Part shown: positions 1,686-19,163 of the stretch, in pieces
Numbering within the stretch: position 1 is the first letter of the stretch
How the letters are laid out: each line of letters opens with the position of its first letter
Assembly: GCF_003336245.1 (NCBI RefSeq)
Contig: NZ_QPHM01000001.1
Span: forward strand, 930,001-994,000
Source of the DNA: Haloplanus salinus
GTDB taxonomy: Archaea > Halobacteriota > Halobacteria > Halobacteriales > Haloferacaceae
Direction: 5' to 3'
Length of the DNA stretch: 64,000 nucleotides
The notes under the pieces: generated by a model
The model's input: the letters and a program-made list of their open reading frames with translations, nothing else
What the model was told of the DNA's origin: nothing
Database searches by the model: none
Made by a program: the position numbers and the translations under genes

Positions 1686-2849
1686 ATGGGTCAGCTCCCG
1701 TTTCCCGCCATCGTCGGGCAGGACACGCTGAAATCCGCGCTGCTGCTGAACGCGGTCAACCGGGACATCGGCGGCGTCCTGATCCAGGGCGAACGGGGGA
1801 CCGGCAAGAGTTCCGCGGTGCGAGGGCTCGAGCGGGTCCTCCCGGAGCGACGCGTCGTCGCGGAGTGTCCGTTCGGCTGCCCGCCGGACGACCCGACGCG
1901 GCAGTGCGCGGAGTGTCGGGAGCGAACCACGGTCGAGGTGGAGCGCGTCCCGACGCCGGTCGTCGACCTCCCGCTCGGAACGACCGAGGACCGCCTGCTC
2001 GGCGCGCTCGATTTCGAACGCGCGCTGAACGAGGGGATCAGCGCGCTCGATCCCGGCCTCCTCGCTCGTGCGAACCGTGGCATCCTCTACGTCGACGAGG
2101 TGAACCTCCTCGACGACCACCTCGTCGACCTGTTGCTCGACGCGGCCGCCAGCGGCGTCAACCGAATCGAACGCGAGGGGCTGACCGTCACGCACCCGGC
2201 CGAGTTCGTCCTCGTTGGGAGCATGAACCCCGAGGAAGGCCGCCTCCGCCCTCAGTTCCGGGATCGGTTCGGCCTCCAAGTCGACGCCGAGGCGCCGACC
2301 GATCCCGAACGGCGCGCGACGATCATCGAAGTCGCGGAGGCGTTCGACCGGGAGCCGGATCGGGTTCGCGAGCGGTACCGGGACGAGGAGCGACGCCTCC
2401 GGGAGCGGATCGCGGCGGCGCGGGACCGCTACGACGACGTCTCCCTCGGTGCCGACCGTCGGCGACGGATCGCCGAACTCTGTCTCGCGGCGGGCGTCGA
2501 GGGGAACCGAGGCGACATCACGACCGCGCGGTGTGCGCGGGCGCTCGCCGCGCTCGACGGCCGAACGGCGGTCACGGACGCCGACGTGCGGCGGGCGGTC
2601 GAACTCGCGCTCCCCCACCGCGTCCCGAACGATCCGTTCGACGACGGCGTCGACCTCGGCGACCTCGCCGCCGACCGGTTCGGCGACGCGACCGCGGACG
2701 GCCCGACCGACCACCCGGACGCCGAGGACGGAGGCAGGGACGACGACGACCCGGGGACCGGCCGCAACCGCGGCGGGAGCGAGAATCGGCGCGACGACGG
2801 CGACAGCACGGTCGGGCGGACGCTCCGGAGGCTCCGAGATTTTTTGTGA
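1686..2849 (+). CDS. chlI: Magnesium/cobalt chelatase AAA+ subunit (ChlI/BchI type)
   Basis: The 387-residue AAA+ ATPase would drive metal insertion into a tetrapyrrole; in haloarchaea without chlorophyll this normally means cobaltochelatase in cobalamin synthesis. The ATG at 1686 gives the conserved start MGQLPFPAIVGQD and sits about 30 bp downstream of a GGATATAC promoter-like box, so the transcript may be nearly leaderless. Walker A is GERGTGKS (residues 35-42), Walker B is GILYVDEVNLL, and a sensor segment SMNPEEGRLRPQ follows. The C-terminal 60 residues are an Asp/Arg-rich linker like the one joining ChlI and ChlD in fused haloarchaeal proteins. The frame ends at a TGA right after a T_TTT_TTG heptamer; see the separate entry. 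No cobN lies in the window. Confidence 0.92.
   Translation: MGQLPFPAIVGQDTLKSALLLNAVNRDIGGVLIQGERGTGKSSAVRGLERVLPERRVVAECPFGCPPDDPTRQCAECRERTTVEVERVPTPVVDLPLGTTEDRLLGALDFERALNEGISALDPGLLARANRGILYVDEVNLLDDHLVDLLLDAAASGVNRIEREGLTVTHPAEFVLVGSMNPEEGRLRPQFRDRFGLQVDAEAPTDPERRATIIEVAEAFDREPDRVRERYRDEERRLRERIAAARDRYDDVSLGADRRRRIAELCLAAGVEGNRGDITTARCARALAALDGRTAVTDADVRRAVELALPHRVPNDPFDDGVDLGDLAADRFGDATADGPTDHPDAEDGGRDDDDPGTGRNRGGSENRRDDGDSTVGRTLRRLRDFL
2827..2849 (+). promoter_or_regulatory. Candidate -1 programmed frameshift site joining chlI to chlD
   Basis: At 2840-2846 the chlI frame reads GAT TTT TTG TGA, so the heptamer T TTT TTG is in the exact phase required for tandem -1 slippage and is followed at once by the zero-frame stop. 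A -1 shift continues as GTG ACG CCC into the ChlD frame. A Shine-Dalgarno-like GGAGG lies at 2827-2831, 8 nt before the heptamer, the arrangement used as an upstream stimulator in dnaX. Six consecutive Ts are rare in DNA this GC-rich. The alternative, re-initiation at the overlapping GTG (2846-2848), is possible, but GGAGG would then be 14 nt away, longer than usual. Confidence 0.65.
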
Positions 2850-3820
2850 CGCCCGGCGCGGAGGGCGAGGACGCCGCGGCCGACGACGATGCCGCCGGCG
2901 GGCACGATCCAGGGCGCGGTGACGGCGAGACGGGGCGCGACGGGCCGGCGGCCGACCGCCCGCGCCTCGATCCGATCGGCGACACGACGGCCGGCGGCGC
3001 GCCCGTCGCGTGGGCGGATCCGGACCCCGAGACGCCCGACGTGGCGGTGTTCGACGACGGAACCGCTCACGTCGGGGACGCGGCGGCCCCGGCGTCGGCG
3101 CCGAGCGGGCGCTACGTCGGCTCGCGGCGGTTGCGGTCCGACGAGCGACCGACCGACGTCGCCGTCGACGCTACCCTTCGAGCGACGGCCGGGCGCGGCG
3201 GGACGGCCGTCAGGGAGCGCGACCTCCGAGTGAAACGCCAGGACGGCGAGGCGCCGACGCTCGTCACCTTCGTCGTCGACTCGTCGATGAGCATGCGCGC
3301 CCACGGCGATATCGGAACCGCGACGACGCTCGCGACGAGCGTCCTCCGGCGCGCGAATCGAGAGAACGACTACGTCGCCGTCGTCGCCTTCCACGACGAA
3401 CGGGCCGACATCGTCGTGCCGCCGACGACCGACCCGACGGTGGCGGCTCGCCGGCTGGACGACGTACCCGTCGGCAACAAGACGCCGCTGCCCGCCGGGT
3501 TGCTCGCCGCGCACCGCCTCGTCGCCCGCGAGCGGACGGCCGTGCCCGACCTGCCCGCCGTCGTGGTCGTGGTGACCGACGGCCGGCCGACGGTCGGCAT
3601 CGAGGGCGACCCCGTCGACGAAACCGAGCGCCTCGCCCGACGGCTGGGGGCGGCGGACGTGGACCTCGTCGTCCTCGATCTGGATCGGGGGACCTCCGGC
3701 ACCGACGTCTGCCGGTCGATGGCCGCCGCGGCCGACGGCGCGTACGTCGCCATGGCCGACGTGCCGCCGACGGAGCGCTCCCGCGTCGTCACGCAGGTGG
3801 TCGACGCGTCACGACGGTGA
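2846..3820 (+). CDS. chlD: Chelatase ChlD-type VWA subunit, in -1 frame relative to chlI
   Basis: This frame carries an acidic linker of about 130 residues and then a von Willebrand A domain with a complete MIDAS: DSSMS near residue 150, a Thr in GNKTPLP, and TDGRPT. Such domains pair with the AAA+ ring of magnesium/cobalt chelatases. No ATG precedes the domain at a sensible place. The frame can be entered only by a -1 shift from chlI or by starting at the GTG that overlaps the chlI stop (GTGA). Read as a fusion, the protein would be about 711 residues, similar to single-chain haloarchaeal ChlID proteins. It ends 18 bp before the convergent pilus operon. Confidence 0.85.
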   Translation: MTPGAEGEDAAADDDAAGGHDPGRGDGETGRDGPAADRPRLDPIGDTTAGGAPVAWADPDPETPDVAVFDDGTAHVGDAAAPASAPSGRYVGSRRLRSDERPTDVAVDATLRATAGRGGTAVRERDLRVKRQDGEAPTLVTFVVDSSMSMRAHGDIGTATTLATSVLRRANRENDYVAVVAFHDERADIVVPPTTDPTVAARRLDDVPVGNKTPLPAGLLAAHRLVARERTAVPDLPAVVVVVTDGRPTVGIEGDPVDETERLARRLGAADVDLVVLDLDRGTSGTDVCRSMAAAADGAYVAMADVPPTERSRVVTQVVDASRR

Positions 3821-5467: not shown

Positions 5468-5907
5468 GACAGAGTCACCCGCACTCGGCCACCGGTGCCA
5501 CGCACCCGGACGACGGCTCGATCGTCGCTCTCCCACGCCCCCTCGACGGCGACGACGCGCTCCGGAAGTGCAAGCGGGACGCGCCCGGAGAGGGTCGGAT
5601 CGGGGTGGTCGAGGACGAGAACTCCGTCGACGGCGCGGACGCGGTAGGTCGCGCGGTCGATAGTGTCGGGCAGCGTGACGCTCCGGGTCACGTCGACCGC
5701 GCTCGCCCGCCGTGGGACCGACGCCTCGATTCGGTCGGCGGCCGTCGCGAGGGTCCGGTCGCTCACCTCCGCGGCGGCCGCCGTTCGGTACTCGGGAAGG
5801 ACGCCGCCGTGGAGGGTGGCGACGAGCGACGCGACGTAGAGGAGGACGATCAGCGCCTCCAGCCCCTTGCCGACTACGGGCGCGAGGCCACGGTCCCGGT
5901 CGCTCAC
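5464..5907 (-). CDS. Pilin-like protein in tad-type pilus operon
   Basis: The 147-residue product carries RGLAPVVGKGLEALIVLLYVASL at its N-terminus, a basic-to-hydrophobic junction typical of archaeal pilin-like subunits, followed by a domain rich in Val and Arg. Its ATG overlaps the previous stop by 4 bp (ATGA) and its own stop overlaps the next GTG start. The whole segment from 8542 to 3839 therefore reads as a single coupled transcript. Confidence 0.78.
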   Translation of the reverse strand: MSDRDRGLAPVVGKGLEALIVLLYVASLVATLHGGVLPEYRTAAAAEVSDRTLATAADRIEASVPRRASAVDVTRSVTLPDTIDRATYRVRAVDGVLVLDHPDPTLSGRVPLALPERVVAVEGAWESDDRAVVRVRGTGGRVRVTLS

Positions 5908-17856: not shown

Positions 17857-19163
17857 TCAGTCCCCAGCAATAGGCTGGTAACTCTCACCGTTCAACGTCC
17901 CACCATTTACACGTAGGTCTACTTCTACGTCTCCGCTCCCCGACTTAGGCGAGGACCGGAGTTTGTGCGTCCGCTTTCGGGCGTACCGTAGCCCGACGTT
18001 CTTTGCGCCGTTATAATCCGCGTTCACCTCGTACCCGCACTTCTGGCACTTGAAGCGTTCTCCGCGGCGGTTGTCCTCGTGCGTGAACCCACAGTCCGTC
18101 CGAGAACAGCGTTGGGACGTGTGGTTCGGCTCGACTTGCTCGACAGAGACACCGCGTTCAGGTGCCTTGTAGGAGGCGTACTCGAACAAGCGTCGGAATG
18201 CCCACACGTGGTGCCACTTCGCCTGCGGAAGTCGCTCACGAATGTCGGTCAAGTCCTCGAACACGATCACGTCGCAGTCGTGTTCGACGGCTTCCACGAC
18301 GATCTCGTTGGCGACGGTGTGGATGTACTGTTTTCGCCATGCTTCTTCGCGCTTCCCGAGCCGAAGCAGGGCGTTATGTGCGGCCTGCGTACCGCGCTGT
18401 TGCATCTCACCGCGTCGCTTCTCGAACTCGCGGCACCAGTGGTCGTAGTCGTCACCGTGCCAGAAGCGCCCGGTTGAAGAGACCGCAAGGCTGTTGACGT
18501 CCTCAGAAATCGGAGATTTCTGATGGGCTGCGCAAGAGCTTCGCTCTTGCGAACGCCGAGGTCGATACCGAGGACCGTTTGGTCGGGGTGCCCGATATCT
18601 GCCGGAACCTCTGCGTCGTCGCCGTCTGTCCGCCGAGTCGAGAGTTGGATGTAGAACTCGTCGTCCACCGCGTCGTATCGAACCGTACTCTCGCGGAACT
18701 CGTAGTCCTCGGAGAGAACGTATCGCTCGTAGGGCGTCGGACTGTCTGCCGGGAGAATGAACGACGGTTCGACCCGCCCCTCAACAGTTGCCAGCGACAC
18801 CTTGTTTCGGTAGAACGTCGCGCTTCGCGCGTCGTAGTCCATCGTTTCGGCGGTGAACGTCGGGCAAGAGACGCGCTGTCCCTTCTTCCACCGTTCGACA
18901 ACTCCCTTGATGGCTTCGACGGCGCGTTTGATGGCGGCTTGGACGAGTTGTGCCTGTAGGTCCGTCTCCTCTCGAAGTTCGGAGTAGAGCACGTCACGAA
19001 CCTGCCGCTTGTTGGTCTTGCACTCGGTGAACGACGTGTCCGACCAACAGTAGTCGGCGGTACGGTTCACGCAGTACAGGTATTGGTCGGCGGTTCGGTG
19101 GAGTGCGTCGCGTTGCTCGTCGGAAAGATTGAGTTTCACGACGGCGGTTCGACGCACGTCCAT
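17857..19163 (-). pseudogene. tnpB: tnpB (RNA-guided endonuclease family), split by a 56-bp insert
   Basis: The N-terminal part runs from ATG 19163 through the first RuvC motif VLGIDLGV. The C-terminal part, in another frame, starts at a MQQRGTQAAHN segment and contains IVFEDLTDIRERLP (catalytic Glu), a CxxC...CQKCG zinc ribbon and NADYNGAKN (last catalytic Asp), ending at 17857. Between them a 56-bp double-hairpin insert (18499-18554) shifts the frame by two; joining across it restores GVNSLAVSSTGRFW, the normal TnpB sequence. All catalytic residues are otherwise present, so the break looks recent. A TATAAG-like promoter lies upstream near 19190. Confidence 0.85.
18499..18554 (-). repeat. 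Double-hairpin repeat, copy 2, inserted in tnpB
   Basis: Read on the minus strand the insert gives CGCAAGAGC-GAA-GCTCTTGCG, an 8-nt spacer and CAGAAATC-TCC-GATTTCTG. The loops and the second stem match copy 1 exactly, while the first stem has a different sequence but is still perfectly paired (9 bp versus 7 bp). The insert is flanked by a GT that could be on either side. It carries no coding capacity. Confidence 0.8.

Follow-up and report, generated by a model that had tools for sequence, protein, structure and literature searches.

The question raised by this locus is whether a haloarchaeal gene for a ChlI-like ATPase and the ChlD frame that adjoins it at -1 form a single gene that yields two proteins. 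The DNA analysed (hereafter the window) is a stretch of 64 000 nt, 930001-994000 of the main contig of the 3.55-Mb haloarchaeal genome of Haloplanus salinus (G000; completeness = 99.93%). A preliminary description of this DNA had proposed that a -1 frameshift site between chlI and chlD serves to make two chelatase subunits. From the sequence comparisons reported here it appears that one gene giving two proteins through programmed -1 ribosomal frameshifting is the best explanation, and we consider it quite probable, because three species conserve the heptamer and the stop behind it but no alternative start, and because selection acts on both halves.

Two reading frames and their junction

The features of the locus are collected in Table 1. 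In G000, the 3' end of the ChlI frame reads CGA GAT TTT TTG TGA. The heptamer in it is of the X_XXY_YYZ type and in the right phase, GGAGG precedes it with a spacer of 8 nt (2832-2839), and a -1 slip on it leads into the VWA (ChlD) frame. The preliminary description was accurate in the coordinates, phase and spacing that it gave for these elements, and the reading frames bear out its claim that a -1 slip enters the VWA frame. That frame has no ATG of its own near the junction, as had been noted, and the GTG mentioned there is present. Both halves are intact, as had also been claimed, with Walker A and B motifs and a full MIDAS that are kept in all three species discussed below.

Table 1. Features of the chlI/chlD locus in the window (genome G000)
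Feature	Position	Strand	Evidence and conservation
ChlI-like AAA+ ATPase, zero-frame product, 387 aa	1686..2849	+	Mg-chelatase, AAA lid and AAA_5 domains
Walker A, GERGTGKS	1788..1811	+	Translation; invariant in 3/3 species
Walker B, LYVDEV	2085..2102	+	Translation; invariant in 3/3 species bar one neighbouring residue
GGAGG, SD-like, possible stimulator	2827..2831	+	Sequence; present in G074, absent in G116
Slippery heptamer T_TTT_TTG	2840..2846	+	Phase read directly; same place in G074 and G116
Zero-frame stop TGA abutting heptamer	2847..2849	+	TGA in G074, TAA in G116, same place
ChlD part, -1 frame: acidic linker and VWA domain, 324 aa	2846..3820	+	VWA domain matches; GTG 2846 through TGA 3820
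MIDAS DxSxS (DSSMS)	3278..3292	+	Invariant in 3/3 species
MIDAS, completing Thr and Asp	3482-3484, 3578-3580	+	Invariant in 3/3 species

The closest solved structures are ChlI/BchI for the ChlI part, and a solved relative of the ChlD part is the 60-kDa Mg-chelatase subunit. The predicted structure of the ChlD part is a VWA fold of low confidence (pLDDT 54); it gives no clue to function, since its PDB matches are generic VWA domains.

Conservation of the slip site and of both frames

The family was searched with a ChlI query in 148 genomes and with a ChlD-part query in 171 genomes. Besides G000, a gene of the same frameshifted kind was found in two genomes, both likewise of the genus Haloplanus: G074 (79% ChlI identity to G000) and G116 (77%), the latter being the MAG Haloplanus sp. 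LUM.53 (L040), which is 79% complete (Haloplanus ruber is G024, L073). No relatives of the gene were found in viral contigs. The junction reads GAT TTT TTC TGA in G074 and GAT TTT TTG TAA in G116; the phase of the six Ts and the presence of a stop directly behind them are kept in all three species, while the identity of the stop codon and the linkers differ. Aligning the gene with close relatives, as the preliminary description had suggested, shows the junction and the heptamer to be conserved in both G074 and G116.

The two frames might be overlapping genes, with termination at the TGA and a restart on the GTG that would give a separate ChlD. Overlaps of start and stop such as GTGA are common in compact genomes, and in G000 the GTG overlaps the stop exactly. 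Moreover, reinitiation at closely spaced genes has been proposed as a use of the SD motifs found inside haloarchaeal ORFs (PMC3986360). However, the GTG is replaced by CTG in G074 and by GTA in G116, and standard start codons follow only after 375 and 201 nt, respectively. The ChlD frame of G074 contains no ATG, GTG or TTG between 150 nt upstream and 375 nt downstream of the junction, a stretch that extends beyond the conserved LDPIG, GRYVGSRR and VDATLR; in G116, a TAG closes the frame 138 nt upstream and the first start stands at +201. In both species the first starts fall past conserved ChlD residues, and for want of usable starts reinitiation cannot yield an intact ChlD there, unless an unusual start codon is used. 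In addition, 14 nt separate the end of the GGAGG from the GTG, G116 lacks the GGAGG altogether, and the conserved T6 is left unexplained. Reinitiation is, in our estimation, distinctly unlikely.

Purifying selection acts on both halves: in pairwise comparisons of the three species (Nei-Gojobori; dS of 0.5-0.9), ChlI has a dN/dS of about 0.24 and ChlD one of 0.30-0.39. Codon retention was analysed where all three species conserve the residue and the G000 codon has A or T in third position. Both the GAT and the TTT codon of the heptamer are identical in the three species, as against 6 of 33 such codons in the rest of ChlI and 2 of 19 in ChlD; taken alone this is modest evidence, because three related genomes are few.

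These results also bear on the possibility of a broken gene or a sequencing error. Homopolymers are error-prone, and most relatives of the gene are plain fusions. Yet the same break is present in three separate assemblies with differing stops and linkers, both halves are under purifying selection, and true assembly errors among the relatives look different and carry Nextera adapter sequence. A broken gene or an error is very improbable, in agreement with the preliminary description, which had held mutation or sequencing error to be the less likely cause. The frame breaks in two public assemblies, L087 (Natrialba hulunbeirensis JCM 10989) and L008 (G107), were rejected as recoding and attributed to assembly artefacts, since the Nextera end CTGTCTCTTATACACATCT lies inside chlID, around 7050 in L087 and around 2620 on the reverse strand in L008. 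In a third chlID, that of L132 (G109; around 5771-5835, reverse strand), the AAA domain is interrupted and the remainder lies in another frame; the break coincides with two six-base repeat arrays, CCAGTC x6 and GATGAA x4, and possibly reflects a slippage-prone or phase-variable site, or an error.

The site is more than a chance occurrence: T6 is seen once within the window, and for TTTTTTNTRA the chance expectation, estimated from dinucleotide shuffles, is 0.01. Over the whole genomes, the pattern occurs 12 times in G000 and 9 times in its nearest relative, G074. Among these 21 sites in two genomes, the chlI/chlD site is the only one that joins two long frames. The others (11 in G000 and 8 in G074) were read singly, and at none of them is a long frame continued by a long one at -1; they were therefore rejected as further recoded genes.

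Slippage at the six Ts could also occur in transcription: if RNA polymerase added one U in some transcripts, the seven Us of the mRNA would likewise join the frames and give the fusion, and the sequence cannot separate slippage of the ribosome from that of RNA polymerase. Even at a short T run, slippage can be driven by a hairpin that lies right before it, as in the Roseiflexus IS630 (PMC5009743), and weak inverted repeats are present upstream of T6 in all three species. However, these repeats are no better than shuffles in two of the three (z = -0.3, 0.6 and -1.8), and the upstream hairpin was set aside as a signal because its folding is weak by this measure. Efficient unaided slippage has been described for runs of nine, and longer runs or a strong hairpin are usually needed (PMC5009743), against T6 here; the exact phase of the heptamer and the abutting stop would moreover be superfluous. 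We regard transcriptional slippage as quite improbable.

With programmed -1 frameshifting, most ribosomes would terminate at the TGA at 2847 and release the 387-aa ATPase, while some would slip back one base on U_UUU_UUG, with the stop codon next, and continue in the VWA frame to give an ATPase-linker-VWA protein of 711 aa. The two forms would probably co-assemble like I- and D-type subunits, in a ratio set by the slip rate. On U_UUU_UUC, the heptamer of G074, both tRNA-Phe could re-pair on UUU. If U_UUU_UUG is read by tRNA-Leu(CAA), re-pairing in the A site is imperfect, which counts against the slip. The translational nature of the slip, its frequency and the co-assembly are inferred, whereas the two frames, the conserved heptamer and stop, the lack of a conserved start codon, selection on both halves and an origin beside haloarchaeal fused chlID genes are seen in the sequence.

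The SD-like GGAGG, found in two of the three species, may assist the slip. As to a stimulatory RNA structure downstream, folding without pseudoknots gives minimum free energies for 60 and 100 nt that are within the range of shuffled sequences (z = -1.6 to 1.0). The preliminary description had called the signal dnaX-like; with GGAGG missing in G116 and downstream folding no better than that of shuffles, the label is not upheld.

Origin among haloarchaeal chlID genes

Of the other haloarchaeal chlID genes found, nearly all consist of one open frame, about 700-850 aa in length, and neither T6 nor A6 was found in the linkers of 86 fused chlID genes (haloarchaeal and other). G_GGA_AAC heptamers, which occur in many fused haloarchaeal linkers, were considered as a reverse-type frameshift signal and rejected; on reading the linkers they prove to be E-G-N motifs whose place varies within low-complexity sequence. 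ChlI matches in halophilic Thermoplasmatota (L108, L109 and L112) lie in open frames of 730-810 aa, an unusual size, in which a long stretch precedes the ATPase.

In a phylogeny of ChlI domains, the frameshifted genes of the three species fall into one clade (SH-aLRT 99) whose sister is the fused, CobN-adjacent gene of another family, G159 (SH-aLRT 95); together they lie within the haloarchaeal group (SH-aLRT 99), beside other fusions. Forcing the Haloplanus genes together with the fs-chlD genes of Chloroflexota costs 50 log units (p-AU 0.03). In view of this placement beside fusions and far from Chloroflexota fs-chlD, a fused haloarchaeal gene is the most likely ancestor of the frameshifted one, although the tree was built without the methanogen and proteobacterial fs-chlD genes, which limits what it can tell about origin. 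Programmed frameshifting was probably gained anew in the Haloplanus lineage. The preliminary description had counted relatives with a plain fused gene and no T run against frameshifting. Most relatives are of exactly this kind; but since they are on a different branch of the family, they date the frameshift to the Haloplanus clade rather than refute it. The Chloroflexota genes themselves (L096, L098, L105 and L115) have a tightly kept A_AAA_AAG site: all read ATA AAA AAA AAG, with TAA four codons on.

The frameshifted gene has no conserved neighbour among G000, G074 and G116. By reading translations, the gene order is kinase-chlID-MFS-flippase in G074 and kinase-MFS-flippase-chlID in G000, with other genes in G116. 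From -2.7 kb to 3.8 kb, G000 is otherwise syntenic with L129, chlID standing ~3 kb further on in G000, past the flippase; the frameshifted chlID has moved locally between G074 and G000. Elsewhere in the window (17857-19163, minus strand), a TnpB-like transposon protein appears to be split over two overlapping frames and is probably a broken insertion-sequence gene.

Function and relation to known systems

The frameshifted pair might be subunits of a tetrapyrrole metal chelatase, as their domain content suggests and as has been proposed for other fs-chlD genes (PMC9227772). The joined product scores 648 bits against TIGR02442 (putative cobaltochelatase), somewhat below the 713 and 754 bits of CobN-linked haloarchaeal fusions; as these too fall short of the cut-off of 779, the cut-off does not decide the matter. 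Against this role, neither PF02514 (CobN/ChlH) nor PF02570 (CbiC) has a match in G000 or G074, where CobS (late assembly or salvage), found in all 12 Haloplanus genomes, is the sole such gene remaining. The same searches found both families in six Haloplanus congeners and in Haloferax volcanii, and PF02514 in 5 of 14 control genomes. In the six congeners an ordinary fused chlID adjoins cobN; the frameshifted gene is not linked to it. In G116 a chelatase role is conceivable, as this genome has cbiC and part of a cobN, truncated where the contig ends; its frameshifted gene is on another contig, and an ordinary chlID may have escaped the assembly. Neither cobN nor a chlID of any sort is present in three other congeners. 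It can be added that within Haloplanus the presence of cobN goes with that of cbiC and of the ordinary chlID (six genomes with, three without), an indication that corrin-ring synthesis was lost or gained repeatedly while salvage was retained.

With no large subunit in the genome, the usual cobalt or magnesium chelatase role is unlikely for the gene in G000, and for the frameshifted pair as a whole we regard chelatase activity as rather unlikely, the case for this reading being weak. Of the earlier proposal that frameshifting gives chelatase subunits, the frameshifting is well supported by the conserved site and by selection; the small and medium chelatase subunits accord poorly with the absence of CobN/ChlH and CbiC from G000 and G074 and with a location away from cobN.

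The nearest known system is fs-chlD, for which a cluster of 23 genes is described; they come from six genera, Methanocaldococcus and Methanococcus among them, with 10-63% frameshifting in E. coli reporters (PMC3711429), poly-A shift sites (PMC3711429; PMC5009743 section 18) and a proposed yield of small and medium chelatase subunits (PMC9227772). Some of these genes are in genomes without CobN and have no assigned function (PMC9227772), and the text of the 2013 paper (PMC3711429) names no haloarchaeon. The fs-chlD genes of Pseudomonas, Burkholderia, Delftia, Herpetosiphon, Methanocaldococcus and Methanococcus have the same ChlI frame followed by a VWA frame at -1. Further likenesses are (i) a homopolymer slip site under selection, (ii) conservation of the break and slip site between species, here three Haloplanus genomes, and (iii) in some bacteria, a genome likewise without CobN. 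In contrast, the Haloplanus site is T_TTT_TTN and not the poly-A A_AAA_AAR, its stop is directly behind the heptamer, its host is a haloarchaeon and no stem-loop was found; common descent is not seen either, the Haloplanus genes branching with haloarchaeal fusions and not with Chloroflexota fs-chlD. The fused haloarchaeal chlID beside cobN (HVO_B0050/HVO_B0051; PMC8305020) has the same domains and is apparently the ancestral branch, but it is one open frame without a T run, whereas the Haloplanus gene is frameshifted and stands alone. The latter would work like a known fs-chlD and yet be set apart from it by its heptamer, abutting stop, lineage and apparently origin; what would be new is a T-type heptamer abutting the stop in a haloarchaeal orphan paralogue.

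Escherichia coli dnaX also gives two ATPase forms with a common N terminus. Its -1 slip likewise takes place on a homopolymer heptamer with an SD-like element upstream (PMC5009743), but it shortens the product, whereas the Haloplanus slip lengthens it, and A_AAA_AAG with a 3' stem-loop stands against T_TTT_TTG without one. An SD-like element is present in two of the three Haloplanus genes, with no significant stem-loop downstream. Closer in domain of life is fucA1 of Saccharolobus solfataricus (PMC8211752), also an archaeal chromosomal gene with a -1 slip on a homopolymer heptamer; its site is A_AAA_AAT and its relatives are mostly full length at 96% identity (PMC8211752), whereas in Haloplanus three species with 65-79% identity have the break in common.

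Among chromosomal genes of archaea, proven -1 frameshifting concerns mainly one, fucA1 (PMC8211752); the haloarchaeal cases in the literature examined are predicted and in viruses, and none of the papers searched links Haloplanus with a frameshift. A haloarchaeal gene conserved in three species, together with Haloferax volcanii as a genetic host, offers a clean test system. The locus also bears on the view that fs-chlD spread from an ancient gene and did not evolve again (PMC9227772), as here the frameshift stands beside a fusion clade, and it adds to the question of the role of ChlI/ChlD pairs in cells without a large chelatase subunit. Tentatively, we suggest that the gene, a fused chlID paralogue by origin, may have been uncoupled from cobalamin synthesis and have gained its own -1 site (T_TTT_TTN with the stop abutting), which would set the ratio of AAA+ and VWA subunits for a non-corrin role. 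If true, frameshifting would have evolved independently more than once within a single gene family.
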